From Patiria pectinifera (lineage: Eukaryota > Echinodermata > Asteroidea > Valvatida > Asterinidae): a stretch of 64,000 bases of DNA. Positions 1 through 43,800 of the stretch are shown here, piece by piece; the stretch's first letter is position 1, and every line of letters begins with the position of its first letter. The translations under genes and the position numbers were made by a program. The DNA is taken from positions 14,712,643 through 14,776,642 of the forward strand of contig CM057140.1 of assembly GCA_029964075.1 (NCBI GenBank), given 5' to 3'. The notes under the pieces are model-generated. The model was given only the letters and a program-made list of their open reading frames with translations, had not been told where the DNA came from and did not search any database.

Positions 1-191
1 GTGCCTAACCCCGAGATAGGGCTACAATACACATGTTCTTATTTGTGGAAAAAAATAATTGAAATTGGAAACATGACCACGTATGATGAAATGTAATTAT
101 TCACTTTTAAAGTGTATTAAGCCTCAAAAAGTGTTTTGAACAAAAATGACTGTTTTGATTGAAAAAGGACCAAATTCCATTCTTTTCTGAC

Positions 192-14900: not shown

Positions 14901-15533
14901 CCAGAAAGAAAAAGGCATAGAAGCCGAGAACGGGAGCGGCGGAGAAGTCGTGATCGCGACAGAAGTAGATCTCGTTCTTCTGGTCGAGAGAAATCGCGCC
15001 GCCGCTCTGAGCACCATGAAAGTGAGAGTAAGCGGCGAGAGTCGCACCGAAGTTCTCACAGAAGCCCCACCCCTAAATCCAGTAGGAAACACAAAAGCAG
15101 CAGCAGCCGCAGAAAGCGCGAGGACTCAGAGGACGAGACGCGCGATCGCGACAGCTCCTCAAGTCGAAGCACGTCCAAATCTAGTTCCAAGCGTAAAAAG
15201 CGAAGCAAAACAAGCGGGCAGGACAAGATCAAGAAGGAGAAAAGCGATCACAGCAGGTCGAACGAGAACAGCAAGTCCAGGGACTCGGAGAAGCGAAGCC
15301 GGGACAAGAAGGAACGACGGAAGCGATCCAGGTCGCGATCGCCTGAGCACAAATCCTCGAGAAGTCGCAGGGAGAAATCTCGATCCAGGAGCTCCGAGAG
15401 GAAATCAGATCGTCGTAAACGGAGGAGGGAGAGGTCAGAGAGGTCAGAGTCCAGGGAGGGGTCACTCGAAAGGTCACATAAGAGCAGCTCCGGTAAGAGG
15501 TCTGGTCGAGAACACAGGAATAGCACCAGATAA
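8936..15533 (+). CDS. PNISR: PNISR, PNN-interacting serine/arginine-rich protein
   Basis: Ten coding exons: 8936-8999, 9690-9902, 9996-10588, 10689-10935, 11270-11469, 11730-11891, 12087-12198, 13173-13232, 13911-14051 and 14488-15533. All phases agree and give 945 residues; the human protein is 805. The start gives MWPAHGGQWGAQAQQHY, like the MWDQGGQPWQQW start of vertebrate PNISR. Next come GTDWAALAQEWIRQR (about 22-36), a Pro/His-rich stretch to about 290, then DAIKRKLLPAWIREGLDSME (about 373-392) with a charged coiled coil. A conserved helix VKQLMVETLLSVTNEEM lies near residue 498, then SSALASISKLGGLTSYG and an acidic tract. Residues from about 658 to the end form an SR domain. PNISR is a nuclear-speckle protein that binds pinin and is linked to mRNA splicing. 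Exon 3 has a weak donor (GTCAGC). The acceptor at 13172 is the least certain boundary. Confidence 0.93.
9850..9862. promoter_or_regulatory. RFX X-box-like palindrome in PNISR exon 2
   Basis: GTTGCCTGGCAAC is a perfect palindrome around one base and fits the RFX X-box half-sites. It is coding sequence (PLPGNH), so it may be chance. RFX factors drive ciliary genes such as ARMC2, whose promoter lies 2.9 kb away. Confidence 0.3.
10320..10333. promoter_or_regulatory. X-box-like site in PNISR exon 3
   Basis: GTAACCAAGGCAAC matches the RFX consensus (two half-sites, two-base spacer). It encodes part of GNQGNQG, a repetitive stretch that could create the motif by chance. Confidence 0.25.
12199..13172 (+). 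other. PNISR intron 7, no gene seen
   Basis: About 970 bases, strongly AT-rich. Its open frames are intronic read-through. No repeat or RNA gene was recognised. Confidence 0.6.
14080..14470 (+). mobile_element. CACAAG-family MITE/minisatellite in last PNISR intron (copy 2)
   Basis: Roughly 30 units of CACAAGTCNATCA and variants are followed by the family core AATGCCTTTGTCATAATTTA at about 14448. The core ends some 15-20 bases before the acceptor of the last PNISR exon (14487). It is spliced out; no coding claim is made for the repeated frames. Confidence 0.75.
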
Positions 15534-16027
15534 AGGTGGATAAGGTTTGATCTCTTTTACCTGTTTGTCTGTCCGTTCAACACCCATCATAAGAGCTATC
15601 AGGTTTTTAGGCTTTTGACCTAACATTTTAGACATAGATTGGAGCTTGTGATCGATCTGCTTGTATTCTGACTGAATCCTTTGCTAACTTTATCCAAAAG
15701 TGAGATCGACCATTTCTTTCAAGAAAAAAATGTGGCTGCCACTTTTATTTCAAATCCTGGAAATCTCTGGCTCAATCTTTGATGTACATGAGACACGACT
15801 CGATGTTCAAGTCTTTATTTGTTTCCAGATCTAATTGTTCTCTTTATCCTGGTGTTTGATTTCAGATTATCCAACTCTGGCTGGATTGTCTTTGTAAGAA
15901 GATTTCCAACTGCCTAGGTAAATATTTAATGAGCAAAGTGGCAGGTCTAGGAAAAAAGGAAAGAGAATTCGCTACTTGTTTCAACAAATTGCAATAATTA
16001 TTTTTAGAATCTGCTTGGTCCCTTAAT

Positions 16028-21400: not shown

Positions 21401-24128
21401 ACCCCCCTCCCCCCACAAGATGGCAAACTTTCCAAGATGGCAGATTGATTTTTCCATTCTCGACTCTTTTTCTGTCACAAAATTATGTCAAAAAAGGCGT
21501 AACCCTATATTTACATACTGGTACATTTCTACCGGAAACAAATAAGACTATACATGTATTTGCAAATATGTATTGCAAATGTGTGAATAAAAAAAAAGGA
21601 GGCGGGCGGGAAAAAGGAAATGGGCGGGGACGAGAAACTGATTAATTTTTTTTTTACTTGGCCTTGCTTGAAGCATATGCAATAACTAACTTAACTTCAC
21701 CTCACAACCTCAGGAAAAAAAGAAGAAAAACCTGCCATGATAAGTTATGTGATAGACTTGGTCTTGGGTAAACAAATGTTAACATTTGAATGATGAAGTC
21801 ATTGTACATGTATTATTCTTTTGTAGACGATTATGGAGAGTGTAGCTGATCATATTGTGAAGATATCCATAAATAAAGGTCAATCCTTTCTATTTCATTT
21901 AGTTGGTAAATATTTCTGAGAAAAAAACCTGTGACTGCTTGTCATATTGGAATGATAAAAAAGTATGCTACGTAACATAAATTTGAGATAAGGTTTCATA
22001 TTCCTGTGAAACCTTATCAAAAGTATATCATGTAATTTATCATTTAAAATAACATATTGAGAGACAGAATCCTCCATTAATTTTTTTCCTTTAAATCTAA
22101 GATTCAATATACAGGTTTTGTTAAATTGACACTACATTCAGCACCTGGTATTTTAAGCAAATTGCGATGAAAAATCAAATTAAAACGCCGGCACAGAAAA
22201 CCTCTCTGAGGTGAATTGACTTTAATATGGATTGGATTTCACCATGTGATACTTCGAGTGTAAACATAGACGATGATGGATCACTCTGAAAATTGACTAT
22301 TCCCGGCAATTCCCGAAGGTTCGCTGTCTTCCATTGTAAATTCATGACTTGCCAATTGGACTAGCCCAGATATCTAGGCACCCTGTTTTTTTATTCATTG
22401 TATTACCGCTAGGGGCTTCATCACAAGGGCTGACTTTATTTTGCAAAACTCATTTTTACCTGGTAAACATGTTTGTTCTAAAAATTCTGCCCATTTTAGC
22501 TTAATAAAGCAGTTCATTTTGCCACCATTTAGACAAAGGAACTTAAAATGTAATTTTCAGTTAGCTGCAAGTTCAGAATGTTTTAGTCATTTTGAAAAGG
22601 CATCTAATATTATCACAGTGATAGTGAGAACCATGAAAGTGCAGTCTTAGAAACATTTGTAATTAAAGTAGCCGCACAAGACAAGGTTTTTACATTTAAT
22701 CTAAAAGTTTTGAGAAAGTCTGTGTGTTGCATAAACAGCAATGCTGCCCTCTGGAAGTAATGCTTTAAGGGTCGTCAACCCTCCCAACGATCGATAAAAA
22801 TCACTCTGTCAAACCTGAGGCAGAAGTCTCCAAAATTTTAAGAAGAAAAAAAAGAAGCCAATTTAAGTGTTGTTCTGGACAGAGCTTGCCTCAGACATTG
22901 CAGTGATGCGACAAATCAAGCAAACAGCTTTGGCAAACTGAGGAGCTGCATAGTGTGTAGATAAATCTCCTCCTCGACTCGCTTCAAATACAACCCCTGG
23001 ATGAGATTGAATTCATTTCACCGAGCGGTTTCCCCAGGCAACCGGCGTTTCCAGGGGGCCACTGTTTGTAATTTTATATCTGAATTCCCTAAAAAGGACT
23101 GGAATAACCAATTCTGTGGCCGTGCCTCGTGAAATCAAATGATTTGTTACTCTCGCCCGACGGGTAAAATTTTGTAAGAAAAACACTCTTGAATTTGGCG
23201 ATCCTAATTTCAGTATATTTTGTCGATAGAATTTCAGGAGTTTGTTTTCAATACTTGCGAAATCAATGCACCAACTGGCGAAATCAATGCACCAACTGTA
23301 TTGTGTTAAAGAAACCTTGCGATCTCCAGAAAAATGAAGTTTTTTAAGTACTGCAGTGTCCTAAATGCAATCATTTTATCATTTATTTGGATCGTTTCTT
23401 TTTACTGCACCTACATTGCAATATTGTCACTAGCATGGCATGAGCATTCACTGTCTCTTTTTGATTGATCGAGTGAAGGCCTTTTGCGTAACTGTCTTTC
23501 AACAGTTTATAACTATGAAGATTGCTGAATACGCACTTAGAAATCAGCACGGCACAGGCTTGATTTGAATATCAAGATGCCAAGAAACAAAACGTTGAGA
23601 TATCCATGGCTATGAATGCGACGGTCTACGATCATCTGCTTATAGAGCTAAGGGCCTATGACTGAGGCAAAGCTAAAAAACATTGATACACCTGGAGTTT
23701 CTTCACAGTGCAATTCCATCCGAGCAAGTCAAGCTGTTGTTTTTCAGAAGTGTCCATTTGCATTGTTGTCACCTGTCTCTGGAAGAGACAGATGGCACAA
23801 ACAACAAATCTTTTGTCTTATCAACAGGTGGCTGTCCTCTTTGTGTGAACTGAAAGCAGGTTAATTATGCTCAGTTGTAATATTTTTTTTTCAAGCGAGG
23901 TAATGAAGTTTATTTTCGTTTTTTGTTGAAATTGTTGTGCAGAAACGTCAACGATTGTGGATGGATGACACATTGGTGATTTGAGCCAAGTTTCAAGACT
24001 TTTGACGCTTGATGTTTGATTCAGTTCTGCTATGAAGACCAACAGCTGAGAAATGCCGACAAAGACTATTTGATTAATTCAGCGGCCAATGATGTAACTC
24101 TGATGCTCCTGTGACTTGTCGCCGAAGC
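18411..24128. other. Intergenic region between PNISR and DPY19L3
   Basis: No gene was recognised. It has G-rich runs (18530-18540, 18615-18665), echinoderm-like GCGCCCTCT words (19760, 20395), a tRNA-like sequence (19630-19710) and a tandem copy of AAATCAATGCACCAACTG at 23260-23300. An open stretch at 20881-21135 lacks an ATG near its start and is not called. Confidence 0.5.
19637..19710 (-). mobile_element. tRNA-like sequence, probably a SINE head or tRNA relic
   Basis: On the minus strand, TAGTGGATAAGC (A-box-like), a palindromic TCATGA at anticodon position and CCGGGTTCGATCCCCG (B box and T arm) appear in tRNA order. The acceptor-stem halves pair poorly and the T stem has a mismatch, so a working tRNA gene is unlikely. 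No SINE tail was recognised. Confidence 0.45.
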
Positions 24129-24518
24129 ATGGCTGACGACAAAGCCCGCCTCCGGAAAGCTAACCCTGACAGCACGGCCACGGGAGACTCCGTCCCGTCT
24201 CCCAAACCATACTCCCTCAAGGACATGGAGACAAACAGCCAGGAGGGTGCTCAGGAGGATGCCCCGCCCAGGGAGAGGAACAGACCCCGCCTCAAGCGTC
24301 GCTACACCTCCAAGGAGGAGTCGTCGACCGACTCCGCCTACAATTCTTCTGACGATGAGGAGCCGGACATCACGGCCGAGGACGGCACCACGCTGCGATG
24401 GTTCTTTGCCTGGGCGACGTTTCTGGTCGGAGTGTCGGTGGCCGGTCTGCTAGGGTATGCGTTTGCCATGTACCTGATCACACTGCATGAGAATCGACTG
24501 TGGTTTAGTAGCATCATG
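24129..24518 (+). CDS. DPY19L3: DPY19L3 alternative first coding exon A
   Basis: A 390-base exon (130 codons, phase 0) ends at a consensus donor (ATCATG/GTAAGT). It encodes an acidic, Ser-rich cytoplasmic tail of about 98 residues with a possible CK2-type patch (SSTDSAYNSSDDEEPD). A first membrane helix follows (WFFAWATFLVGVSVAGLLGY) and then the family motif LHENRLWFSSIM. Joined to the exon at 42282 it continues EVEREISFRTE, exactly as in DPY19L3 of other animals, and gives a 779-residue protein. An upstream GTG at 24111 is in frame, but the ATG at 24129 is the better start. It is 13 kb upstream of exon B, which encodes an equivalent but different N-terminus. It is unlikely to be a dead duplicate, because frame, donor and motif are intact. 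Confidence 0.82.
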
Positions 24519-27500
24519 GTAAGTACTTGACTTTTTTTCCCTCGCCAAAAAGTTAAAAGTAAAGACTCAACCCTGGTAATATACATGTAGTATAATAACC
24601 CAGGTCCTGTAAAATACACCCAACTGATCATACCAATTCAAACTATAATAATTTTCTGCTACCATTTTTTTTTAAAAGTCTACAACTAGAATTCGTTTTA
24701 CTGTAACCCCCAAGGAGCCCACTTTTGATTTACACACATGTACAAATGTACCACGGCGACAGCTTGCCCCAGACTGTCTGATTAAAAACATTTTAGCAGA
24801 CTCCGATACTGACATGGCTACCAGGATTGGGTTTCATAAAACCTTACTTCTCTCCGAAGACAGAAATCTCCAAACAGGGAAAGAGAGACATTTATTGTCT
24901 GCTAAGTTGTCTTCATGTTCAGTACAATTCACAGAGCAGCTAGTGAAATTGTGAAATTCGTAGACACAGCCATCCCGACCATGGTCTGACAAAAATAAAT
25001 TTTGTGAAAACGAAGTTCGCTGATAGAAACTTAGTTTGAATGAAGCCACATTGAAACAAGGCTTTGAGCTGTATTGTTTTGAGAAATGTACCATCAGGTT
25101 TGCATATTTAAATTAAGAACTTTTCATCAACAATACATTTTGTGAAAACCAAGGACAATGTTCATACGGCATGCCGGTATGTACAGTATTAAAATTAGTT
25201 GCATGGAATCATCAATGAAATTGCCACAAAGCTTTGGGGATTACCGTTTTTAATGAAGCGCCATCTCATTTTCATATTAATGACTGCGTTTTAACAAGAT
25301 AAACATGTGGTCATCATCGGCTATTCAGTTTTTTTGACACAACACCTGTTAAACCATTAAACGGTAATTTGATGTTTTCGTCAGCCTCATTTCAGCCATC
25401 TGTCGTCCTTCATGGTCTGATGAATTTTCGTGGGTTCTCTTTGATGAATTCGAAAAAAAAAAATACCTTAAAAAAAGTAAAAATTAAATATCCATTTTGG
25501 CACACTGTATGCTGTAACATGTATGAACAAAGTACTCTGTGTTTATGGAATTCAGGGACATACCGTACATTTACCATGCAAGTTTAGAACTGAATGTGAT
25601 GTTAAAAATGTATTGTGTTTAGAATTGAAAGAAATTATGCATTTGAAGAATGTTATGTGTGCCATAGAGGAGGGATATTTTTTTTTTTTAAATAATCCTT
25701 TTCACTTTACCGTACTCTCTAAATTATATTTCATTCTTAAAATTTCCGATGAATATAAATTTCACACAATTTTATTAGAGTGCAGTGTGTGTGTGTGTGC
25801 GTGTGTGCAGTTCTATTCAGCTGTTATGAACACATGCATTGTAATCCTTTGAGAGATTGTTGCCCATCCATTCCTGTATTGGAAAACAGGTGTATTTGCC
25901 TGTATTGAATGTATTGTGCACTGCCCCACATTGAATGCAGCTCACGCAGGCTAGGAGAATCAAAAGACGACCAAGATCGGATCAATAATTTGAGACCCCT
26001 TCTACCCTACTCTCTTCCTGTTCCCCATCTTCCTGTAGTTTGGGTAAGGGAATTCGAGCGTGTCTCTCGATCCGATCAAAGCGAGTGAGTGCACCTGAGC
26101 TAGGAGGCAGTTTGCATGAGTGAGCTTGTCAGCTTGATCGGCGAATCTTATCTTTGGAAGGGACGGATCGGAGAAATTGCCGGGGACGGGAAAAGCTGTG
26201 TGTGTGTTGTCAAGGGCACAGAGATTCTAAGATTAAGAAAGCCGATCGGAGCCGACAATAATTGACACCGAGGCAAGAGGAGATTAGAACTGTGTGGAAG
26301 TGGGGCAGCGACAACGAAGCAAATCAATAGTCTTCCCTTCTGTGAGCGGGAAATTGCTCTCTGGGTAAACAAGCCTGCCGAGAGGACAGACGAGGAGATT
26401 GGCTGACATGTGTTTCCCTTCTCACTCGGCTCAGGTTGTTTTTGCACATCTACCTTCTTTTTGTCTTTCTTCAAGTTGGGTGGGGATCTGCTGATCGGAA
26501 ACTGATGAGTTATGTGAGCACTTGCACATCACTAGGATGCGTGTGTGCTCTACGCAAGACGGCCTCTTTAAAGTGCGAGGATATTAAAGAGGCAAGTTGG
26601 TCATAACTCGGACAGCTCTGTGCCGGGGTTGGGAATTAATCAGGATTGTTGCTCAGGTCATCGTCGCCAGACAGAGGAATTTAGTATAGTGCGACTGTGT
26701 ATAGGTGTTTTTAATTTTTAGCTAGCTGCAGAAATCATATGTGACTGATTGGCTGGAGCTTGTTGTTGCTGGTTCGTTTAATAGGAAACGAAAGGGAGGA
26801 GCCTGGATTCGTTATTGTGTAAGCACAAACAAGTGGAGTTCACTGTAAAGTATGTCAGGCGTATCTGCCATATGGACTGGTAGTACATGTACATTGTACC
26901 TGTAGATGTGCCGTCTAGACAGTGTTTCATGGATCTCGGAGCCTCCTGTTTCTATCATTGCTGAGGGTTGGTGTCTCACAACAACGCAGTGTAGTCAGCC
27001 TGGATGTTGTAAACTTTTCTTCAAACACTTCAAATTTGAGAAGTATTGGAAATTAAAATTACTGATTGTTTTTTTGTACTGTAGATGTACCAACACAACC
27101 AACCAGTTGCTGTGTTCTTCCTATTCTGCAGTGCTTCTTTGCATTTCTTCAAAACAACCTGTAGTGCTTTTTCAAGCTTAGTCCGTGAATTTACTTCTGA
27201 TACATGTATATCTCTTCAAAAAAACTCTGCTAGATTTTCACCTGTAACAATTTTGGAAGACTCCTTTTTGTTTGAGCTCCAAATTCTGCCTGTGGGACAA
27301 CCTGACACTTCAAAAAACCCAAGGAAAGGTCAGCTGTGTGGACGGAGTTTAAGTCGCACAAATTCAGTCCGACTGTGGCTGTACAAACATTGCCAGCCCA
27401 GCCATTGATGTGATGCCCAAAGGTATTTTCTCTCCGCATTGAACGTCAAACCAGCCAAAACTAAATCAGCTGGGAAAAAATCTCATGCGAGAACAGGGAT

Positions 27501-29678
27501 AATCGCTCAGCAGTCCACATTACTGAATGGACCACCTAGTGCTTTCCTGACTACTTGACTACTTTTGGTGATTTCTTGAAGATGTGAGGTCTTGATGATG
27601 TACGAACATCTGTAGTTTGCAGCCTGGCAGCCTGAAGTCAGTTAACCGTCTCCTGTTTTTGGGCGCAGTGTTTCTGCCACCTGTCGTCTGTGATTCCTGT
27701 CGGTTCCGTCACTACCTTGGAGTTCACACCATCGCAACTTCATGCGCCTTGTTCCAATTTCTTGTTTAGGGAGCTAGGAAAACAATTGTATCCTTTTTCT
27801 TCTGAACATTTTACCGTGGTGTAAGATGATGTTAAACAGGTGGGGGAGGGGGGGGGGGGGGTTTAAATGGGGAAATTTGTCTCAGGATGCGGGTGTGATA
27901 CGTGTAGGTGTGCAGACATAATATGATGCATGTACCACTACATTGTAGGTGTGCAGACAAAATATGAGAGCAGGCTAAGCTATGAAGGGCAAGTTTTTAT
28001 AGTGCAGTTTCAAGCAACTAGGGAGGTTTTTAATGCAAGGATTCTGTGAATATTGAAAAGTAAGACATCTGAAAAAAATACGCCCTCTCCCTACCATATT
28101 TCTAACACACATGTAGAGATGTGAATACAAAGTTATAAAATGCAAACTAGAAGTCTTGAAGTATATTAATGTGACTAAGTAAACCAAAACCTTACAGGAT
28201 GGTGCAGACATTAACAAGAATTATTTGGTCGTCTGCAATTTTGCTGAATTTCTCAAGTTTACCATTCATGTACATTTGCATGCTTTGGGCAAACTTTGTT
28301 CTATCATATCTGAACCCTCAGGCATCCTGTCAGTGTACTTTACAATCAGTTCCAACTTTGCAGGAATCGTTCCAGCCCAGCCCTTCCTTTCCTCCCCTGG
28401 GTTTCAGGCTGCAGGTCCCGTGCCGAATTATCCAGTCGACGCGCAACCGAAACGGCTCGCGCAAAAAAAGAGACAAACAATTTGATCCTTCAATTAACTC
28501 CGTTGCTGGGAATATGGTTCGCATTACTTCCCCTTTTTGACGAGTTCCTTGACGCAATTCTGCATGACGAAAACCCTTCTGGGAATGATTTACATGGAAA
28601 TTGCTGTCAGTTGATAGCCCCTATTGGTTTGTGTGAATCCCCTAGAGCTATTTTATTAACTTTTCCTCTGTGTCTGATACTGAATTTCCTTTCGGCAAGG
28701 TACGGAAGCCGTGGGCAAGTAATAACTAAGAGAAATTTAAGCACCGAGTTTTACAGACAAGTTTGCTTATTTGCCCAATTTGTCTGTTTGTTTGTGTGGA
28801 TCCCCGAGAGTTACTTTTGATTAGGTTTTCCTCTCTGTTTATACCGAGTTCTCCTCGCCACAGGCTTGTCTTCGTCAAGTAACATGCCAGTAACCATGGT
28901 GATAGCCAGGAGAAATTTATACCAGCATCCAGTTCTGTGAACTAGTTTATTTGCACACTTGTTCATTCCTTGATCCTCCTTCAAGGCAAAACTTACAAAA
29001 AAATTTGCATTTGTAATGATCTTGCTGCGTAGTAAACGTGTGTACATGTACACAGCTACATGTACATACATGTAGGGTGACTTTTGACAAATCCCTGTTA
29101 TATCCAATGTTAATCAGGTTTATATGGAAGTGTAGATAGGACATGGGTAACTTTAGACAAATTCCTGTTACAATGTATGTCCAATGTCAATCAGGTTTAT
29201 CAGTTAATCTCATAAAATGTGCATTTATTTATTTCCGACAAATTTCTCCTTCATAACAAGCATAATGAGAGAACCTCAGTCAGCAAAAAAAATGTGCATC
29301 TTGAACATTCCAGCAGTATTATTAAACCAATGGTTATCCTATTGAAAACAATTTTTTACTTTACACATCGAAAGCAACAGAGAACCGTTTTGAAATGATT
29401 TTGTTACGAGGCTGTGTCAGTTCACATGCAATCTGCATGTACCATCACCAAACCACCACCTTGCCAAGAAAAGCACCTGTCGTCTTACAGACCTGTGGAA
29501 AATTGGTCCACACACTCCCACAGGGGGCTGGGGAGAAATTACGGCCTCAATCGATCGCAATAAAACACCGATCTCATTTCCCTGTTTGTCAGCTATCCCT
29601 TTCAATTTACCGAAGCCGCGGCGCGGTCCGAGCAGGCACAGGAAGATTCCCCAAGAACTGGGTCAATTGGGATGGGCA

Positions 29679-29692
29679 GTTGCCCTGGCAAC
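29679..29692. promoter_or_regulatory. RFX X-box-like palindrome
   Basis: GTTGCCCTGGCAAC matches the palindromic RFX site at all half-site positions. It lies in the long DPY19L3 intron, within a 250-base segment less AT-rich than its surroundings. Function is not shown. Confidence 0.35.
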
Positions 29693-30464
29693 GGCACATT
29701 GGGGGCAATTAATTGATTGGATGGTGCGGCGTCACCTGATCTGAACACATTTGCTGGGAAATCGTAAACTACGGTTGATTTCATTATTTGGCACATGTTC
29801 CTCTGGGTTTTTGTTCCAGGGTTCTATTTTGTGTTTATGCTGGACCTAAGAAAGTTAAAAAAAACCTTAAAAAAACCTAAAAAAAACCAAAGACCATGTC
29901 GATCAAACATTTTTGGTGGTTGCTTTAAAGACTGGCCAACAGGAATAAGAATATGATGTTTTTTTTTTTTTTTTAAATGAAATATTCCATATTTTTAATA
30001 AATATTACTTTACCAAGACAAATTTGTTTTTTTCTCTTTTCTTTCAAGCTCCGATTTACATTCCCTTGACTTGACTACCCGCTCCCCCTTCAAGCTTTCT
30101 TCTTACTTTGGCTAAGTAGCGTGGGTGCTCTCGTCAATCTTACAGAGGGCAGTCCGGACACTGGCCCAGCTAATGCGCTTCTTGATGAAACGCGGCACGT
30201 CCATTTGTCATGCCGCCCCGGCAAGGGGGAATATTAAAAGACGTAAGTGGGTCACGCTGCCCATGCTCACCATGTATCTATGTCACTCCCCGTGGGGAGG
30301 TATATTCTCGGATCAAGGGTTCTCGGAGGATCAAAGAGAGGTACTTTCATTGGAATTTGAAGGGGGGGGGGGGGGGACTCTAAATCATGACGGCCTTCCC
30401 AAAAGTATTTATGGGTGATGACAGTGCATTTGAGATCCCCAATCAGCTCAAAATCGGCTCAAAA

Positions 30465-30925
30465 GTGCAAGGGGCAATGTCATGAAAAATATTGCTTAGC
30501 AAATTGATGTGCTTAGCAGAAAATAGCCATTGCATGGCATCTTGGCTAGTGCAGATATTTTCTGCGCTTAACAACTTTCCGTGCTCCGTGAAATGTGACT
30601 GGTTACCAGTCAAATGCCATTTGATGTTCATTGGTTGTAACTGGTGCTCAGCTGACTTCTGCTCAGCACATTATGTTGTGGTTATCCTGGTTATGAGCCC
30701 CATGTACTACATTGTATTACATTGTATTACATTGTGTTTATTCAATGAAGATTCCATAACACCATAGTGCTGGGGCTGTTTTGGGTGCTACAGTGAGTAC
30801 TAGTAATATCGCTTAGCAAATTGATGTGCTTAGCAGAAAATATAGTTTATTCAATGAAGAATCAGTAACACTATAGAGTGCTGGGGCTGTTTTGGGCGCT
30901 ACAGTGAGTACTAATACTACTAGTA
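30465..30925. repeat. GCTTAGCA-type dispersed repeat with local duplication
   Basis: GCTTAGCAAATTGATGTGCT, with the GCTTAGCAGAAAATA-type continuation, occurs at about 30495 and again at about 30811. GTGCTGGGGCTGTTTTGGG is found at about 30767 and 30881. A related region with CTAAGCAGAAAATACTGC is at 35617-35780. Confidence 0.6.
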
Positions 30926-33900
30926 ATAGGGATTAGGCAGGGCGGATTGGGGCGACTAAAGGGTTAAATGGTGCTCACAGAGTTAGGTTCGGTTTATCTG
31001 TTTGCCAAGCAAAATGGTTGTAAACTATTGGCTCCGTGCGCAAACAATTGAGGGTTGCTTTCTGGTTTGTGTGCCTGTATAGCGAAGTACGCACGCCTTG
31101 TTTTATTCAGAATGTGCATAAAGCCACAGCCTCTTCACATGAACGTCAGGCCTCGTCGGCAGTGCATTCAAATGTCACTTAATAGTGTCTACCCCAACTC
31201 TCCCTCCCTTATCGTTGAGGGGGTACTTGTGCTCGGAGGCCATTGAGGGTGCTAATTAATTCCCCCATCAGGAGCCAGGAAATCGCACTTTTCCGACCTG
31301 CTGTTGGGCAAGATAGGAAAACTGGACTAGTAAACACAATTACACTAAGCAAATTTAGAAATGCACATCAAAACAGAAATTTTTTTTGGAAGGGAGTTGG
31401 AAAACTAGAAACCGCTTTTGGGCAGGAAATTTCGTCCCAGGTAGCCAGACAGCCCGTGGGCCATAGGGGAATTTGTCTGACATTTGAGACGGGATGGAGG
31501 AAAGGCTGGTTTTTGTTTTTGAGACGGAAAACGATCAGGCCCACGGTTCCAGTACATTTGCGTGTGTAATTGGCTTTTGCTGCTGTGCTGTTGAGGTATT
31601 TTGGAAAGGAAGGTCGTAAAACCATGAATGGATTGAGTAGCCTGCTCATAGGTTGGATGTCTTTAGGATGCCCTGTTTTTAATGCTTTTTTATATTAATG
31701 ACAGAGCTACCTGTAACATGGATACCCAAATTTATCAAAATTGTTAGTACGTTTGATTCCCAATTTTCCTATTGAAACCTCACTCTTGTTTTATTAGAGC
31801 AAAGTCAAACTTCTGTCCGTTCTGAAGTATGAACCCACTCTAACACATTTTGATACAAATAGAAGCTCCAGCCTTTACCAAGTACAGTTTTTACTCTCTT
31901 TTGGAATACTTTTTTTTTCAAGCGAGACGTGGCCCAAAGTCGAGAGACAGATATAAAAGGGGCCTTTGTTGCCAAAAAGAGACCCCTTAGGATACCCTGG
32001 GATAGCCACCTACCCGAACGAAATAATTCCCCCTTGTGTCTAACCCCCACTCCCCCCAAGAACTCTCGCAGCCCTGAGAAGAAAGATACACAGGAAACCG
32101 AATCTGACTCATATCGCCTAGAGAGAGTTTGGTCTGTGTTCTAAATCGGGAACTTGCCCCTTGCTCTCCATTCCCCCCCCCCCCCCCCCCCCCCCTTCGC
32201 TCCACAGCCCATCAAAAATTGCCAGAGCACTTAGCCGTGGCTCTGAGGGGCTTCTAGAGAGCTCGAGGTGTTGAAGGAAATCTCGGTTGGAGAGTTTTCG
32301 GGGGCCAGGAGGTGTGCAGTTCAGGAAAGGATCCATTTGAGCCCTGCCATTACGATGGTGGACGTGTGGGGTAAACTGCCGGTACCGCAGAGCCTTCTAG
32401 CCAATTGTATCGACTTGATGTGTTGATTTTGCTGTCTGCTCTTGGGGATGGGAACATTTTTAATGTGTTTGGATTGAAGCATTGTGTGTCTTCGGTACTT
32501 GTCCCATTGTGTCTTACGTGGAGAAATTTGTAATGGATTGTGAGTACTAATTCCTTGGTCTGCTTGTCTGCGGCAGAGTTTCATGACTTCTCGCTTTTTC
32601 TCTGTTGTCATCTTGCTTTGATGCTTTTCTCTTTTGTTTTTGAGTAGGCTAAATTGTGGATTCATTGTCCATTTCTGTACTTTTGCAATGTGTGGGAACA
32701 TTGTAAGTAACATACCTTTGTCATACATTTGTGAAAACTCCAACATTATGTTATGATTACTAAATTTTTGCTCAGACATTTCTTGTTACTTAATTCTAGT
32801 TTTCCACTTGAGGTTGCCCTTGTAATCGCATCATTTAGGCCTATCAGTTGGATACGTAACACATATTGTCAAAAGGTATGAAGGTTTTATTTTAATTCCC
32901 AGTCATCAATTTCCTTACTACCGTAAGCAGGTTGGACGTACGGATTGTCAGTTTTCTCATAATGGAACAAGTTGTTCCTCTTTTGTAGCCAGTGTTGCAG
33001 ATTTCCTTGCGGAAAACTGTTATTTGTAAAGATTTGCATGCGCACACTTTCCTCGTCGAAAAGAAATTGTTTGGACTACCGTACCTTTTTTAATATGAAA
33101 GTCGACTGGGACTTCGTATGACTGTAACTTGTTTGCCTTGAAAATGCATTACCTCGGTAATGCAAATATACAGATAGCAAAACGTCTGAATTTGTAAAAG
33201 TGCGTACCGGGAGCTTATTTATTTTCAATCTGCCTGTATTTATCCTCTGAAATTGCTCCTGGTGTGTTGTAATGGAACAAACATTTGCAACTGTCAGATG
33301 TTATTATTCATTGATAAACAGTTATTTGACATTGATGTGTAATAGCATTTATTCTGGCTAGCTACGGTAAACATGTACACACGTATACACTGTGGAATTG
33401 GTTTTGGATGGCTATTCCTGTTGTGATACTGAAGGCATTTTTCAGACAGAGAAAATAGCATTTTGTATCCTGCTTTTCTACAAGTTTCGAGTAATTTTGA
33501 AAGACTGTTTGATGGTGCACCTTAACCTGATATAATTTAGAAGCATTTTCTTGTTACCTAAGTACTCTTGAAGTGGGTTGACATTAGACACGGCATAAAA
33601 AACCAGTAAGTTGGCTGGTCCAGTGGTCTATTTTCCTTCCCTTCTGGTTTTTGTCAAGGGATCTGACGTCTTTTATTGAATCAATTTTCTGACTATGTTT
33701 TTTAAATTTTTTTATTTGGTCAAAAAACGGCCTTCCCCCTGGAAAAGTTGGAACTTCCTCTATTGTTCTAGAACTTTGTCCCCAAGGTGCTCGTAGGACT
33801 ATTGTCATAATTAAGTTGGACGGCGGTTTCCTGAAAACCTGCACAGTGTCTCCTGAATGTGAATCACAAGACAAAGTCGCTGTGAAAGATAAGTCTGGAA

Positions 33901-34689
33901 AAAATTTTAAATTTTTTTTCAGAGTTTGGAACAATGGCTTGTGGTTTTTCTCAAGTTTGCATCAATCAGCGATTTGCTATTAAGAGGTTGGTAATGCGGT
34001 TCGATTTGCGGTTTGAGGTAGGGGGTCTGCCTTAAGGCCAGGGGTTTGTAGTCAGGGGTCTTAAAAAACCCTGAGATTTGGCACCTGTTGCAGTAATTTG
34101 ATTGGAATCTCAGCGGGAAGCGGAAATTTTTAGTTTTATTTTGAGTTGTCCTGGAAGTTTTATTTACAATAGCAAGAGGCAGGGTTTAGTACCAAAACAC
34201 ACTGTGAGAGCATTGACTAATGGGATTCCTCCTTGCAGTTTGCAGGACAACAGATCTGCAGTGTAGGATCTTAGAAGGGCTGTGATTGGTCCACAGTTTT
34301 ATTGACCTTCTTGTGTTGATTTCCTGTCAGAGTGGACAGTGGTGATTTGCAGCTGAATTGACCAATCACGTTTGTTGGTTTATATTATAGGATGTCAGGG
34401 ATCAAATAAGGTTCGTGATTGGTATATTTTTTCTTGAACTCAGCTGGTTGGATGATATTTTAAAAATATTTTTAAAATGACCAGTCACAATTTTTTTGTC
34501 ATGGAGAATTTTTTTTTTGGCGTTAATTGGATCACTGACCAATCACATGCCTCCTTTCATTCTGTAGAAACAGCAGGTTCTTAGAATGTCACCAATTGGG
34601 CAAAAGTTCTGTTGACCTTGATGCATTGCGTAATTGTAGCAGCACACATAGGAAGTGTTATCTATGCTCACAATGAACTGACCAGTAGT

Positions 34690-34835
34690 TTATACCAGTA
34701 TTTCTATGGCCAGCCAAATGTAACAATGACTAGCATTCTATGCAAAAGTTAACTTAAAGTGAACTGGTTATTTATATTTCTATGGCCAGCCAATTGTAAC
34801 GATAACTAGCATTCAATTCAGAAAGTTAAATGCCA
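34690..34835. repeat. Direct duplication, unit about 77 bases
   Basis: TTTCTATGGCCAGCCAAATG at 34701 recurs as TTTCTATGGCCAGCCAATTG at 34778, and both are followed by GTAACRATRACTAGCATTC. Divergence is modest. Confidence 0.65.
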
Positions 34836-37261
34836 CATTGGAGGTCATATGCATTCAACTGATTACCTTGGTCCAAAAAGAAAATGAAAGGACGTTCTGC
34901 GCGGTGCGTCGCAAGAATTTCAGGCATTTCAGTATCCTGTTAATATAGGGTATTCCCACCCCCCTTCTTTTCTTTTTCCCCTTTTTTGTTCAAATGGCAG
35001 TCAAAAGTAGTTCAGGGATAAAAGTTGTTCAGACTTACTACAGTTTTTTCTTTGCATTGTGCATGTTCTCTGAGAGTGCAGGGCTTTATTTCACATGAGG
35101 CGCACCATATGCTGTGGCAGCTTGAGAATTTGGGTCACAGTGTACATGTAGCTTTTGGCTTCCTTGGTGTACATTTGTTTTATTACACAAAACAGGAGTG
35201 TGGCATTCAGCAGGCTAGGTAGGTACCGGTCGTATAGATTTTTGAATGGGTTCCAAGTCTAATAATTGAATGATCTTGTGCTGTCACATGCTCATAAAAT
35301 TTCACTGTTACCTAGGAGTCTCAAGTTGCACTTTAGCTGTCATTTTCTCGCAGATGGACTTTATTTCATGTGATCGGAAAGGTCGTGATGTTGATATTGT
35401 GTCGTGCTAATGTGGGAATTTGATAGGTGCTGTGCCATAACCCATGGTTTGGAATTATCCAAATGCCAAAGTTGGCAGAATTTGTTGATGTCATACCAGA
35501 AAATATCAAAAAAATGCAAAAATTGATTTTATTGTTCTGAATACAAACCGTGGAAAGGCAGTGCCCACGTGCACTTTTGTGTGATTACTTTGGGAGGGGG
35601 GCAATATCATGGAGCTTCTAAGCAGAAAATACTGCTTAGAAAATTTATCTACTAAGCAAAAATCAGCTGGGTACCATTCACAAGCGATGCACATCGCATG
35701 GAGTATCGGCTGGTAAGCAGTTTTTGCTAAGCAAGTATTGTACGCGCTTAGCAGATTTATGTACTCAGCAGCATTATGAGATTGGCTCATTAGGTTTTAA
35801 TCTCCGGCCGGACATTAAACAAAGAAAGCCAATTTGCTTTGAAGGGGGAATTACTAATGAAATCACACAAAAAGGTGTGAGACCAGATGGGGCCTTTCTC
35901 ATTCTGCAGTTTAGACGTGTATTTGATTACTCAACATTTGATCCAGCTTGGCTTGATTTGAAATTAAAAATCTCCTTTGACCAAGGACTAGGAAATCATT
36001 TTTACTAGAGTGCCGTGTCAGTGAACCCAGCGCGGCTGCATCTATCCGTCATCACTTTCTCCCAGCTTCGGTTACAGACAATTTGTATGTTAATTTGACT
36101 CGGGGATTGGCTTAGGGACTCCAGAGGGAGCCAGGGGTTTCTCTGGTATGGTTAGTCTGCCAGGACTGGGGGTAATTTGTGGCTGATCAGTAGGCATTAG
36201 GACAGTGTTTGCTTGACAGATGGGCTCTCATAAACAGGTTTTTTTTTTATTCAGGAAAATTTTTGTCTGAGGGGAGATTAGAGTTGGATAAGCTTCTCTT
36301 TTTTTTTTAGTATTAAAATGTAGTTGTTTGCAATTTTGTTAGCATGTTTGTGACAAATAATTCATACAGCACAATGTAGTGAATGACATTTTGAGTGCCT
36401 ATTTTTGCTAAACTTTTTTTTTTCTGTGCCCAAGGATAGTTTTAGTAACTGATAGAAACTGAAGCCTAGAATTTGTTCCCTTGAATTTGTAAAAATTGGC
36501 ATCACACACCTGGGTAAAGCAACCTAGCTTACCCTAGGAGCAAATTCCGGTGCAAATGTCAATTTCACCTCCTTCAGCTCACTTCCTTAACACTTCAAGG
36601 TTGTGACCGACGGATCCCCACCGTGAGATGGAGCAGTCACGCTGACAGATTACATGTACCGCAGCGCTCCCCTCCGCAGACCATGAATCAATTTCGCCAG
36701 ACCTGCCGTGTAACACTCTCCTAATCACCCTCACGTCACGCCACTGACTTGGGTAAATATATCCCCCGCTCAGCTCAGCTCAGCTCGGCTGCCAAAGTGA
36801 CAACCGGACAACGGATTGTGTACAAGTGCATTCCCCACCAAGTGAGGAAAATTGGAGGCGTAGTTTGTTTTGGGACGTTCCCCTTGGTTAGCGTGCGACT
36901 CGAGTTGAAAGCAGCCTGCTGCGCTGAGGCGGAAAGGTTTGCACCTGCGACAAGCTTTGGATCGGTGATCAGATGAAAAGAGACTTGCTACATGCATGTA
37001 ACAGCTTTGAGGACTGGAGTTGGCTGTTTGTTGCCCTAGCTTTTTAGCATTGCGACACGCTGTTCATGTCCTCATAGAGTGTTGGTAAACAGTGAGTCGA
37101 CAGCGCCAGTGACATGCTTGACTGTCTTCAATAGAAGCGATCGCCTCATTGAGATCAGTCCATCGTTGTGATCGTACAAATGTATGTTGCTTTTTCCTTG
37201 AAGTTTTGAGGATGATGTCGTAGTTTTGTGAACTAGTTTTGCATTGTAATGCTTGTTTTGG

Positions 37262-37506
37262 ATTGGAATAGCCACTTCTTTCGGTCGGCAACTTAGTCAA
37301 GTTTTCATCAATACCAGCAGAAATTAACATTACCTCGGTTTTCTCTGCTCCACTGCTGTACTGTGATTGGATAGTTGATATAAGACTACAGTTCTGATTG
37401 GACAGGTTTCAACATTGCTTCAGCCGAGATTTCGGGGGTTATCTCCACTCCACTTGAAACAACAATTCTGATTGGACGACCCACAAGGTAGCGCATTTCT
37501 GATTGG
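37262..37506 (+). promoter_or_regulatory. ATTGG (inverted CCAAT) cluster before DPY19L3 exon B
   Basis: ATTGG occurs at 37262, 37366, 37397, 37471 and 37502, three of them within TCTGATTGGAC. Inverted CCAAT boxes bind NF-Y and are typical of promoters without a TATA box. The cluster ends about 70 bases before the exon B start codon. This supports a separate promoter; binding itself is inference. Confidence 0.55.
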
Positions 37507-37574
37507 ACGGCACTTCAATATTCTTGGTTACATTTTATCAGAGGATTGCAAACTCAAATAAAAATTTTTTAAAG

Positions 37575-37886
37575 ATGGGTCGGAGAGATAATGGCAACGG
37601 ACGAAAACGGAACTCTGCCGTCACTAACGGATATCATAAACATATCAACAACAACAACCACCATCATCATCACCATGGGAAATCCAACGGATATGAGCCA
37701 CCAATCCGGAACGGAAAAACCCACTTCCCCTCCCGGACTTCCAAACAAAATGGCCATCAGTCCGCGGCATGGACTAACTACGTATCGCTGGTCTTTGGCT
37801 TCGCTTTGGCGGTGTATTTGGGATATCGCAACGCCTGCTATATCAACAACCTACATGAGAACCGGCTGTGGTTCTCAAACATCAAG
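37575..37886 (+). CDS. DPY19L3: DPY19L3 alternative first coding exon B
   Basis: A 312-base exon (104 codons, phase 0) ends at ATCAAG/GTAACT. It encodes a basic, Asn/His-rich cytoplasmic tail, one membrane helix (YVSLVFGFALAVYLGY) and LHENRLWFSNIK. It serves the same role as exon A but shares little sequence except the last 12 residues. No clear splice acceptor lies just upstream, and an ATTGG-rich region does, so it is read as a true first exon with its own promoter. Confidence 0.85.
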
Positions 37887-40800
37887 GTAACTTGAATAAT
37901 TGATTTCTTTAATTGAAATTACAATATGGAAATGATGATATTTGTGTTCTACTTCTCACAGTTTTGCCATCTTTATTGGGCAGAAAGCTGTTTTAACCAG
38001 GTCTGAATTTTTTTTTCTGCCGGTTTGGTTTTCTAACACAGGTACCAAAAAAAAACTGCTGGGGGGCTTAATACAAAAAGATGATTCATCATGACATAAA
38101 ATTATCATTTTATTTTAGATGCTGAACAATTCCATGAAAATTTAATTTCAAAAAGTAAAATGCACAGTAATCCAGCTTAGCTCTAACCATGCTAAATTCA
38201 ACCAGATTCTGTATAGAATTCAAATGAACCATTGACGGTGTGGTATTTGGCAAGTACGGCGCCAAAGAGCCGGAGTCTAACAGCAACGGAGGAACGAGAC
38301 GCAAGTCAGGTTTGTTTCGGTGCATGGATCAGACTGAAGCCTCGTAGCCAGCCCGCTCGAGCTGGCCACTCATGCCGTCAAGCCTGACTGACTTTATTTA
38401 ATACGCATTCACTACAACGGGTAGAGTCAGGGGACAGTATGGAATATCTTTGAGTGTATTACAAAGGCCTGTTGAAATTTTGTTTGATTTAATTTCAATT
38501 ATGCATTTATTGAAAAGAGCACAGAAAAGAGTACACAAAAGAAGTATACATGTACATCACTTCAAAGTCTACATTCTATATTTCTGTATAAGTTAATCTT
38601 TAAGGGATAAAGAAAGAAACAAGACATGTAATAGAATTTGTCCTGCGTGTCGTTCACACTTTTCTCTCTGAATAAGTCAAATCCGCAGCCCTAGGTGATA
38701 CATCCACACTAATCCTTCTGATAACAAACAACTTTTCAGCGCCTTGGCGTTTGCTGCCTATACCTGCGAGAGAGCTCCATCCATCTTAAATTTTGCTCAC
38801 CTCGTATCACTTGATACATGTATGTGAGGTTTTAAGACTGACAAAAAGTCCTTTGTGTGTTACTAGACAGAAACACATCGGTTAAAAGGAGGTAAAAATA
38901 AGACCAGAAAGGGTAAATTGCCAAAAGACAACTAATTACAATCTTACAAAATTATTTCAGAAATAAAATTAGCTGATTTCAGGCTTTTTAAACTTACAGA
39001 TAACATTTTGGTGTCATAAATGTAGCTAACTCACATTTCCTGCAAAAGTGTCAAAGCCCACGTACATATCCTTGTTATTTTGATTATTCTTATAGTTTTA
39101 ACAATTTCATGCATGTTATTATAATGAAAAGAATTCATGAAGACTTTTTTTCATAACATTTTAAAACTCTCACATTTAAATTCATGGAGGGAATTGATAA
39201 AATTTCAAACTAGACCAGAGATTAGCCAGGCATGGATACTTTTAATCCTTTTTATAGCCCTCATTCATACAAGTATTCATATCAGTTGAACCCATTTTGA
39301 CCGGACAAACCTCCCCTAGGGCTCAATGCAAGGGGGGGGGGGGATGATGGCCTTTGACGGCATTCAGATGACTCCTGTAAAGACGTCATAAATGATTGAT
39401 GAGAAGTTTCTCCATCAACACCTATTGGTAGGTTTCCCTCAAATGACCGGATGGTAATAAGCATTGGACTGTGTCGGAGCCTCTTGCTAAGTGTTTGCAA
39501 TAGAAATATTGCCTCAAATAAATTGAATCGTTTGTGAAAGAATTCTAAAGAGAATGATGTTGGTGCTTTATCTTTAAAAAGTGCACAGCTACTTTTTCAT
39601 ATAGTTTGCGAGGTAATTATTGACGGTAGTCCAACAGTGAATAATTCTTTGCCGGTATAGCAAATGGGATGTTTTTTTTTTCTTTTCTTGGTCTGGTCAA
39701 CATTTGTCTAATTATCATCATCCCTACCAACCCAATAATTTAATTAGATGGCAAACTGAAGACCTGCATGTGACAGTGCTCCTCCATAGCATCTAAACCT
39801 AGCAACTCCATGTACTGGCTTTGCTTAAAGGCACGGTAGGAACACTTGCAATTACCTGGAAACGTACTGTTTCAAGGAGAAAGTCCTTGCTCAAAGTTGA
39901 AGATAGGAATGGTACCAAATACCTTGTGAAATGTTTCTCCGTAGAATGAAATGGTGTCATTCAGAAGAAAACAATAAATGAAGGCGGTTTAAGAAAGTGT
40001 GCCCAGATGTGTTTGCAATGAATCGAGTTACGAGACCCCAAAAATTGTGCATACATTTTCGTCTGTTTGCTGAAAATGTATAGTATCCAGTTTCTGTCCA
40101 ATGAGCTGAAACTTCAACGAGTTTGTTGTTGGGCACCCTTCTGAAGATTTCCAGCAATATTGTTGCTCAAAAGGAGAAAAAAATGCACAAAACGCAAATG
40201 ATAAAATGTACCTTTAAACTACATGGCTCTCACCAACTGTGCTCAATACGCTCCAGGTACAGTACTGAGAACTCGGGGATCTGTTGGAATGTAGACCCCT
40301 AGAGATCCTCTCTGCATTCGTCAGGAAATGTCAGGGAGTTGAGAGGAAAAAAGTTAAACTTGAAGAAGAAAATTGGATTTGACAGACTGAAGAGTTAAAA
40401 AAAGTAGTGACATTTAAAAAAACAAAAATAAATGGTGTACTGTTCATGCGCTGTGCTGGGTGACGGCACATGTCCCTTTTCCGTGCTTGACAATTTTGAC
40501 ACAGTGTGTGCACGAACGTGTAGAGAAAACCTCAGGCTGCACTTTTCTGTTAAGGGGAAAAAAATTTGATTTGAATTATCGTCGGGAGAGGACACAAGTG
40601 TTTATTATCTTTGAAGTGGGAGCAGGTGCAGGTTAAGCGAGGGCATCTGAAAAAAAAAGATATTTTTTTTCCCCCTCAACTTGGGTGATTATATGAAGGG
40701 AGTCACTATACAATACAGGACACTGCAACATTTTAGCTCTTTTTGAATGTCTACTTTCATTATGCTGAAAATTTGAAATGAAAAAAAAAATGTAAAGAAA

Positions 40801-43800
40801 AATATTTTAAAAAACATGCATCTTTTTACTTTTTACCAAACTGTATGATGAAATTAAATGATTCAAATGACCATAAGTTAGGATTAATATGTAAATTCTC
40901 TTAATCCTTCTCTGTACATGTACACTTACATTGTACATGTAGTTCTGATCGCAATCACTTTGGCTACAAAGTAGACATGCACATGCCTGAGAAGAAATTT
41001 CCTCGTTGACCATTTTACGCTGACTCATTTTTTAAAAACTTGAATAAATAAACCAATTCAAATCTGTGAATAGATTGCGTGTAGTGTGTGGAGGGAAAAG
41101 ATACTGTCAGTCTGTTTGCTGATAAATTGGTTTGGACAATTTGATAAATCAGACTTTTTTGCTGAACAGTGTCGTGTGTACCGCGCAATTACCGGCACTT
41201 GACAATGTTTTGCAGTTGATGTCACCAGTAGCTTGAATTTTTGTATTACTGCCCAAAATAAATATGAATTTAGAAACTTGTGTTTAATATTTCATCAAAA
41301 ATTAAATGCACCCGTCCCTAGACTTCACAAATTGAGGGCTGGTGCCATAAGAAATTGGAGGGAGTTGTGCCTACTTTATTCGGCATTATGTCCTCCCGCA
41401 CGGTTTCTTGAACGGATGAGGATGTTTGTGTAGGAAGCAAAACACGCTGTAAGAGACTCTAAAGTGCTCACTCTCACCAATTACATTAAGCTACTCCATC
41501 ACTGTCAGCAATGATGCGTAACCGGGGGCAACGCTGAATGAAGAAAAAGTACAGACGGGTGTTACCTAAGTGCAGACAGTATCTTCACCTTGTTTGTCCT
41601 CTGAAGAGACTCTAAACGTTCCTCGTCTAGCATCCATTAAAAAAAAAAGACACACTGTTTTCTTTTTTGTCTGCCTAATGTGCGTCTGGTACGCTCTGCA
41701 TCTTGTTTAACCGTGGGTCTTGACAGTGATGCATCAGAGATGAGTGTAGCAACATTTTTTTGGGGGGGGGGGAGGGGGAACAATCAACGAGGAAGGAAGA
41801 AGTATTGGTGAATCATGGGGAGAGAATGGTGCATGAATGGATGGGGATGGCGTGTCGTTAATCTGTCAATGTCAATTGACGATGTGTACTTCATCATGAG
41901 AACTGTGATATTGAAATGAAGGCCAGGTTCACTTCAAATGCTGGTTATTCCACTGATTGAAATTGTAATTCTCAAAATCATCGTGGGGGATGGGATTTTC
42001 TATTTTAGAAAAGACCAACATTGCAAGGAATTCTATTGGAATTTTTCTACATCATAGATTTGTATAGATCAGAAAAATAACCCACTCTTGTAATTCAAAC
42101 TCAATTTTTAACATCAGCTTGTTAAAAATTATTAGTCGGAATTAAAGACCCAACAAATTATAACTTATGATTGAGACAATCAAGAACATGGTTTTTTTAA
42201 CTATAAGATATCAAAGAAACAATAATTGTTCATCAAATTGTTTATTCAAAAGGTTTTCTTTTTGGTGTTTCTCATCTGTAGGAGGTCGAGCGTGAGATCT
42301 CATTCCGTACCGAGGCAGGGTTCTACTACTCATTCTACAAGCAACTGGTCTTTGCGCCGTCCATTGCAGAAGGTAAAATAACAGCGATTAGTCCTTACTC
42401 CATCGAGTATGAAGAGAGCGTCCAACATCCATCCAAAGCCATTGCATTGGTCATCTGTGCTTTGAATTTAAGTGCTTTGAATGAGCAGGAATAGTGTTTG
42501 GACACACAGCTTGCTATCGACAAATCACTGTACACTCATGAGGCCCCCTTCAATGGAGAAACCACTGTGCATGCTATTGTACAAAGCAACTGCCCTGTGA
42601 CTGATTATCTGAACAATAGCTAGCACAATGCTTTCACCATTGAAGGGGCCCTTCGTGATAGAATTGATAACGTGCCCTGATTGGTCTATAGGCATGTAAA
42701 AGATGTACAACAAAAATTTGTTTGAAAATTCATGAAAAATTTCAGCTTAAATTCTTTCATCCGAAACTCTGATTCGCAGGCAGTCAAAAATCAATCCTCT
42801 TCCCTTGCCATGCCTTTTACACAGGCTAGTCACCAACAGTCAGATCATATTTTAAGCAAGCACTGTGACTAGTCAAATTCAGTCAACAGACAAAAACTGG
42901 CAAGTTGTGGGCACAGCTGGCTTAGCAATCACCTACAATCAAAGCATAGCTTTATCAAGTTACATTTAAACAGTCACAGCCAGTCAATCCTGCTTTATGT
43001 AGTCTGGGAGCTCTTAACTGTTGAAAACAGTCACTTGATTGATTTTTAACGGAGGACAACTTGACACAGAATGTGTGTTTGCATAGGAGGTTAATGAATA
43101 TTCGTTATACCCCAACCACGCTGTCTCGGTTCATAGGCTTAATTTCTTTCAGTACCACCTGCTGTATTTCAATATGCACCTGCACTTGTTGGAAAGGTCC
43201 TAACTAAATCGTCAAGTAACCAGTTGTGGGCTGTATCAAGCTGCACGGCCATGGGGAAGGGGGGGGGGGGAGGAACCTCTTGACCAAGTCCATCATCTGT
43301 CCACAGTCAGTCCAGATCCTTGGGTCTTCAGCAGGATGTATGCGATATAACCACTCAATTAGATTAAAGCCGATCAGTCGACTAGTAGCTAACAAAGTGT
43401 GACAGGCTATGCACATGGCGTGGCGTTAACATTGACTGACGGGATAGGGGTTGACACCTGATCGGTGTTAATAGTTAGGCTGTTCCATTAACTGCTGATG
43501 GGATGCCAAACTGTACATGTACTTTGAGTCAAAAGACAATTATTTACCCATTTTTTTTTTAAGACGGATGAGTTTGTGATTTTCCATAGAACTATAGGTA
43601 CATGTACATGTATTGTTGTATTCCATTGTGTCTTTGAAAAGTAAGTATTCTTGTACAGTATCCAACAGGAATTTCAGAACATTCTTAGAAAAGTGAATAA
43701 TGATGGTGGTCTGAACTTTTCATTCTAAATTTAATTGTTTTAATTTTTCGGAGGTCTTACATTGTACATTCCATTTTAGTTGTTCAGTAATCAGTGTAGA

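Follow-up and report, generated by a model that had tools for sequence, protein, structure and literature searches.

Apparent alternative coding first exons in a DPY19L3 gene of the sea star Patiria pectinifera

In the glycosyltransferase genes UGT1 and GCNT2, tandem homologous first coding exons with their own promoters are spliced to common exons, and in GCNT2 the variable exon carries the N-terminal transmembrane segment (PMC1885805, in its available text). Tandem duplicated exon substitutions are homologous alternative exons as well; the available text of PMC9741552 describes them as enriched in membrane proteins, with disordered parts that are not conserved between the copies. For the Dpy19 family of C-mannosyltransferases, a human DPY19L3 isoform without most of the C-terminal endoplasmic reticulum (ER) domain has been described (PMC10972723). 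The available text of that paper and of PMC6801728, PMC1475853, PMC12990085, PMC10154233 and PMC5154530 does not describe an alternative DPY19 first exon, and among the titles listed in searches of the DPY19 and C-mannosylation literature, echinoderms included, nothing suggests alternative first exons. Here we consider a stretch of 64,000 nucleotides from Patiria pectinifera (assembly GCA_029964075.1, contig CM057140.1), which as a whole is called the window below. It contains on its + strand a single complete DPY19 gene that is best read as DPY19L3. From the DNA, this is predicted to be one gene with what appear to be two interchangeable alternative coding first exons, exon A and exon B.

Two homologous predicted first exons, signs of coding constraint and a single body

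The first-pass annotation of this DNA had proposed two alternative coding first exons that lead into the same phase-0 body, and this holds. On re-check the coordinates, frames and phases of A and B were exact; both frames are open, both end at donors, and both enter exon 2 (EVEREISFRTE, 42282) in phase 0 to give an intact joined coding sequence. In sequence, there are two predicted first coding exons of equal phase with one common body, as in a variable-first-exon gene. In each exon the ATG has A at -3 and G at +4. Exon A ends with ...LHENRLWFSSIM before GTAAGT and exon B with ...LHENRLWFSNIK before GTAACT, each in phase 0. These donors score 5.8 and 3.8 on a provisional frequency matrix, which was used for all donor and acceptor scores, and scores as high are reached by 0.4% (A) and 1.6% (B) of the 3643 + strand GTs in the window. 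The intron to the shared exon 2 is 17.8 kilobases (kb) long from A and 4.4 kb from B. With in-silico splicing to the 15-exon body (42282-51900), the predicted protein is 779 amino acids long for A and 753 for B.

The 15 shared exons were placed by similarity to a provisional human DPY19L3 sequence (the human sequence in all comparisons below), by reading frame and by splice sites. All body exon boundaries are phase-consistent, the joined coding sequence is open, and the 14 body donors score between -1.4 and 7.7. Against a cut-off of 27.2 bits, PF10034 matches the A form with 730 bits (E 2.7e-219, profile positions 3-653 of 653) and the B form with 731.4 bits (E 1.1e-219, positions 2-653 of 653). 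The B form also matches C. elegans DPY-19 (7zlg) at E 5.3e-75 and is identical to human DPY19L3 at 334 of 686 aligned positions (49%), in a comparison that covered L3 among the human paralogues. Both forms would encode the core of a C-mannosyltransferase. A search of the PDB with part of exon 15 gave zero matches.

The available text of PMC10154233 gives Glu71 as the presumed catalytic base of worm DPY-19. If chain position is taken as residue number, this residue is the E of RTE in 7zlg_A, and its partner in the alignment is the FRTE glutamate of exon 2. The presumed catalytic glutamate is therefore encoded in a shared exon, and the active-site base would be common to both predicted isoforms. 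The glutamate of LHEN, near the end of both A and B, was considered as the catalytic base and ruled out, because worm Glu71 counts to the RTE of exon 2. What differs between the isoforms is the cytoplasmic tail, the first transmembrane helix (TM1) and the first dozen residues of luminal loop 1.

The tails are strongly unlike, as had been claimed. The tail of exon A is about 90-98 amino acids long, acidic and Ser-rich (net -5, with 20 acidic residues and several CK2-type sites), and that of exon B is about 63 amino acids long, basic and Asn/His-rich (net +9, with 11 Asn and 10 His, six of these consecutive, and MGRR at the N-terminus). We take this MGRR to resemble an N-terminal di-arginine ER signal, but Arg-rich motifs are found in both tails, and the sequence therefore gives no obvious difference in ER retention. 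The best 19-residue hydropathy of the hydrophobic stretch is 1.99 in A and 1.47 in B, compared with 1.92 in human. In tblastn, the same N-terminal stretch of human DPY19L3 matches A at E 4.5e-5 and B at E 2.0e-5. Searched by itself against the PDB, exon B had no match better than E 0.13, and the weak matches shown rest on His tags.

The first-pass annotation had called the exons non-homologous and had at the same time derived them from a duplicated first exon. The former is wrong for the second half of the exons and the latter is supported, since A and B align over TM1 and the luminal motif with a score of 92, compared with a shuffled mean of 23.3 (standard deviation 3.7; 0 of 1000 shuffles as high). 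The alignment is restricted to the second half of the exons, with the tails outside. TM1 without the luminal motif scores 37 versus 20.0 for shuffles, and 5 of 1000 shuffles score as high. When the 3-kb flanks of A and B are compared as DNA, the sole match with E <0.05 consists of the last 36 nucleotides of the exon and 4 nucleotides of the intron (77.5% of 40 nucleotides). The motif LHENRLWFS, with which both exons had been said to end, is indeed identical in its residues, and the 7 nucleotides that differ between its nine codons in A and B are all synonymous. In a search for motifs of this type, the six-frame translation was cut into 80,392 windows of twelve residues, each of which was compared with the motif of B itself and with the human one; A reaches 57 and the best window beyond A and B reaches 26 (B's 68 is a self-match). 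The likeness of the two motifs is not chance.

Both A and B have an Arg where the worm chain, the L1-like gene of the same genome and human L3 have Asp, which suggests that the duplication took place within this lineage; in the best reading it is old. Codon usage was scored against the codons of the gene's own body. Exon A has 0.49 bits/codon, above all 2287 sliding intronic control windows, and exon B has 0.13 bits/codon, the top of its six frames and above all 2298 control windows. This argues that both exons were translated since they diverged; it bears on past translation, not on the present use of A.

Matches to human DPY19L3 with E <0.01, outside A and B, all lie downstream of 42270. Of the weaker matches, one (E 0.087) covers exon 8, and the others, with E values from 1.3 to 8.6, are dispersed. 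A second tandem DPY19 gene between A and B was looked for and rejected: there is no convincing DPY19 exon in this interval, where the sole match (34986-35225, minus strand, E 1.7) contains stops, and ten open reading frames (ORFs) sampled from 25-36 kb have no Pfam match. In the 613.5-Mb genome, the 20 matches to PF10034 at E ≤0.001 (22 candidates, all scored) are confined to the DPY19L3 gene and one locus on contig C11, and there is no retrocopy or second allele of the gene among them. The DNA of A and that of B each have one full-length, 100% match in the genome, and a peptide made from the end of A and exon 2 finds four places, namely A, exon 2, B and the exon on contig C11. As the genome matches are confined to two loci, and A and B are single-copy, no other body for A is in sight. 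The locus on contig C11 has a worm-type loop 1 (FENDRFFSHL...EREMTFRTE), and its exon appears to start before loop 1, not after it; this locus is probably DPY19L1-like.

A scan of 15600-42281 (+) for further first exons returned only A and B. It asked for an ORF of at least 40 codons from an ATG, with a TM-like stretch and a phase-0 end at a donor, with thresholds placed slightly under the values of B itself. In 15500-64000, no RNA family was found at its gathering score.

Upstream regions and other explanations

A and B are first exons, so the choice between them is probably made at the promoter. The four ATTGG boxes (inverted CCAAT) before B are all in one orientation, with spacings of 31, 74 and 31 base pairs (bp), and three of them have TCTGATTGGAC in common. 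When the 300 bp upstream of B are shuffled by dinucleotides, 2 of 2000 shuffled sequences contain at least four such boxes. The window contains two same-orientation CCAAT/ATTGG pairs exactly 31 bp apart (among 20 pairs within 100 bp overall), and both are found before B. According to the available text of PMC4982600, tandem CCAAT boxes in NF-Y promoters targeted by c-Fos are mostly spaced by about 31 bp, counted edge to edge in its methods and start to start here. The 322 nucleotides before B contain no ATG, as is the case for 0.8% of sampled stretches. It is likely that the promoter of B is located at this CCAAT array. Upstream of A there are six ATGs in 117 nucleotides, each of which opens a short frame that stops before the start of A; at least six are found in 4.9% of sampled stretches, which makes this a weak sign. 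There are also two CCAAT boxes (23972 and 24086), the second of which is a strict NF-Y match (24084) 45 nucleotides before the ATG, and an initiator-like TCAGTT at 23871 and again at 24021. The promoter signs before A are weaker than those before B.

A number of observations speak against two promoters and an old, constrained duplication. Unlike B, exon A is not preceded by a CCAAT array. Neither a TATA box nor a CpG rise is found in the 400 bp upstream of A or of B. The upstream 300 bp of A and B have no 9-mer in common on the same strand, and a promoter motif common to both was rejected for this reason. The window has 14 strict RRCCAATSR sites, and the B boxes include none of them. Four CCAAT are also present in a different stretch of 160 bp near 34526, so that this count by itself is not unique. 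At the protein level, TM1 of B is no better than shuffles against the worm TM1 (432 of 1000 equal or better; 17 of 1000 for A), and against the human TM1 shuffles do as well in 23 of 1000 cases for A and in 4 of 1000 for B; with results as uneven as these, TM1 alone is weak evidence. In the luminal motif, 0 of 200,000 random draws of 7 changes left the residues of LHENRLWFS unchanged, which speaks for the duplication, but this figure counts the Ser switch AGT/TCA as three and should be taken as indicative only. The synonymous test covered the nine codons of this motif; among the four remaining codons of the last 13, three differ in residue (T/N, S/N, M/K).

We put at about 0.8 the probability of a single DPY19L3 gene whose two alternative coding first exons come from an old first-exon duplication and have two promoters. 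In such a gene, A would be transcribed from a start region upstream of 24129 and B from the CCAAT-box promoter at about 37366-37506, both exons would be used, and each would be spliced to the shared exon 2. Either mRNA would yield an identical C-mannosyltransferase core whose catalytic glutamate comes from exon 2, and the isoforms would differ in TM1 and in the tail, which is acidic with CK2-type Ser sites in A and basic with an MGRR start in B. Its position leading into the active site may explain why the luminal start of loop 1 has been conserved. The timing, place and level of the enzyme could in this way be controlled separately, and the tails might provide specific ER retention or partner binding. 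The first-pass annotation had suggested a possible switch of trafficking or regulation between tissues. A more detailed picture is speculative and, as a whole, rather unlikely. Here, the enzyme would have an exchangeable cytoplasmic face made of two promoter and first-exon units, which would join tails of -5 and +9 and two different TM1s to one and the same luminal active site. B (di-arginine, NF-Y-driven) would serve general C-mannosylation in the ER, and A (with a phospho-regulated acidic tail and a leader rich in upstream ATGs) would be limited to a tissue or stage and attached to another part of the ER or to another partner.

Exon A could instead be a relic of a lost tandem copy of DPY19L3 at 24-37 kb, whose body was deleted and whose first exon is now unused or nearly so. 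Its location 13 kb before B would fit this, as would its weaker promoter signs and its junction end, SSIM, which is further than that of B from the human SNIK, but a relic is improbable for an exon of 130 stop-free codons with coding-type usage above every control window, a strong donor and a strong start context. The differences from B in LHENRLWFS, all synonymous, point to continued use, and between A and B there is no convincing trace of other exons, nor a Pfam match in the ten sampled ORFs. Ranked behind the relic, and improbable too, are A and B as internal coding exons, alternative or sequential, behind one upstream promoter, including a transcript with A, B and exon 2 in sequence. Such a transcript would stay open, as splicing to an acceptor-like site ahead of B, at 37542, would put 11 in-frame codons in front of B's ATG, and this site scores 2.4, near the weaker body acceptors (2.2 and 2.7). 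However, the best acceptor-like site in the 300 nucleotides before A scores -0.3, under all body acceptors except that of the uncertain exon 12 (-1.3), the context of both ATGs is good, the CCAAT array stands directly upstream of B, and a fusion of A and B with two TM1 helices should invert the enzyme. An assembly error that misplaced A from another locus or haplotype is very improbable, even though the assembly has 1020 contigs and invertebrate genomes are often polymorphic, because A and B are each found once genome-wide at 100%, are located some 0.6 Mb within a contig of 15.4 Mb, and are far too divergent for alleles.

Coordinates and neighbouring sequence

Table 1. Predicted exons and candidate upstream regions of the DPY19L3 gene, in window positions.
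Feature	Position	Strand	Content or basis
Region just upstream of A, possible leader or promoter	24012..24114	+	six upstream ATGs, strict NF-Y match, initiator-like word
Exon A, alternative coding first exon (predicted)	24129..24518	+	130 codons: tail, TM1, start of luminal loop 1 (LHENRLWFSSIM)
Candidate promoter of B	37366..37506	-	four ATTGG (inverted CCAAT) boxes, at 37366, 37397, 37471, 37502
Exon B, alternative coding first exon (predicted)	37575..37886	+	104 codons: tail, TM1, start of luminal loop 1 (LHENRLWFSNIK)
Shared exon 2 (EVEREISFRTE...)	42282..42372	+	PF10034 E 1.2e-11 alone; residue aligned to worm Glu71
Shared exon 3	44025..44149	+	similarity, frame, splice sites
Shared exon 4	45394..45539	+	similarity, frame, splice sites
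Shared exon 5	46229..46352	+	similarity, frame, splice sites
Shared exon 6	46845..46979	+	similarity, frame, splice sites
Shared exon 7	47383..47514	+	similarity, frame, splice sites
Shared exon 8, less certain	47809..47913	+	tblastn E 0.087 (weak), donor -1.4 (weak)
Shared exon 9	48113..48186	+	similarity, frame, splice sites
Shared exon 10	48448..48606	+	similarity, frame, splice sites
Shared exon 11	48953..49223	+	similarity, frame, splice sites
Shared exon 12, last TM helix, less certain	49728..49784	+	frame, splice sites, hydrophobic content; no tblastn match; acceptor -1.3 (weakest)
Shared exon 13	50208..50290	+	similarity, frame, splice sites
Shared exon 14	50680..50812	+	similarity, frame, splice sites
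Shared exon 15	51406..51564	+	similarity, frame, splice sites
Shared exon 16 with stop codon	51745..51900	+	similarity, frame, splice sites

Within the DPY19L3 gene, intron 4 contains a 10-bp minisatellite (CTTGTGATGA) of 38.5 copies (45814-46196), which makes up over half of the intron and stops about 30 bp before exon 5. Its unit resembles repeats in the neighbouring PNISR gene and near the DPY19L1-like exon on contig C11 (TCATCACAAGTCA). Downstream of DPY19L3, a 17-bp unit (CAACTCGGACCCACTAC and its reverse complement) forms two arrays in opposite orientation, about 1.2 kb apart (54366-54565 and 55761-55961), and a 321-bp unit is found in 1.9 tandem copies with 88% matches at 62762-63380.

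The PNISR orthologue (9659-15540, + strand) ends about 8.6 kb upstream of A. It has PF15996 at 11110-11526 and 12087-12230 and a long RS-rich stretch, and its likely intron at about 14067-14393 contains an 11-bp tandem repeat (CAAGTCAATCA). At 127-6346 on the minus strand there are ORFs that read like an armadillo-repeat protein, presumably ARMC2-like; the four that were tested have no Pfam match.

Comparison with known systems

In the Dpy19 family (PF10034), with C. elegans DPY-19 (PDB 7zlg-7zlj) as an example, TM1, luminal loop 1 and the catalytic Glu come in the same order as here, and two alternative first exons with unlike tails are a feature of the present gene. In the available text of the literature, C-mannosylation is discussed with regard to paralogues that differ in their sequon preference. 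Should both exons be in use, a single gene would vary C-mannosylation as well, via the cytoplasmic side of the enzyme, and the gene would offer a natural test of what the tail and TM1 of DPY19 do, because the rest of the protein is identical.

Tandem duplicated exon substitutions concern mutually exclusive splicing, with no mention of promoters in the available text of PMC9741552, whereas the exons described here are first exons. A comparison with CYP19 was dropped, since the paper concerned deals with gene copies and not with first exons. The present layout is like that of UGT1 and GCNT2, which, as far as the available text describes them, are also glycosyltransferase genes with a variable-first-exon layout. 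Unlike these, the present gene varies only the tail, TM1 and the edge of loop 1, and its two exons are strongly diverged. Use of both exons would extend the first-exon layout of UGT1 and GCNT2 to a GT-C enzyme, and probably to a gene outside vertebrates. The layout as such is known from UGT1 and GCNT2; its occurrence in DPY19 appears to be new.
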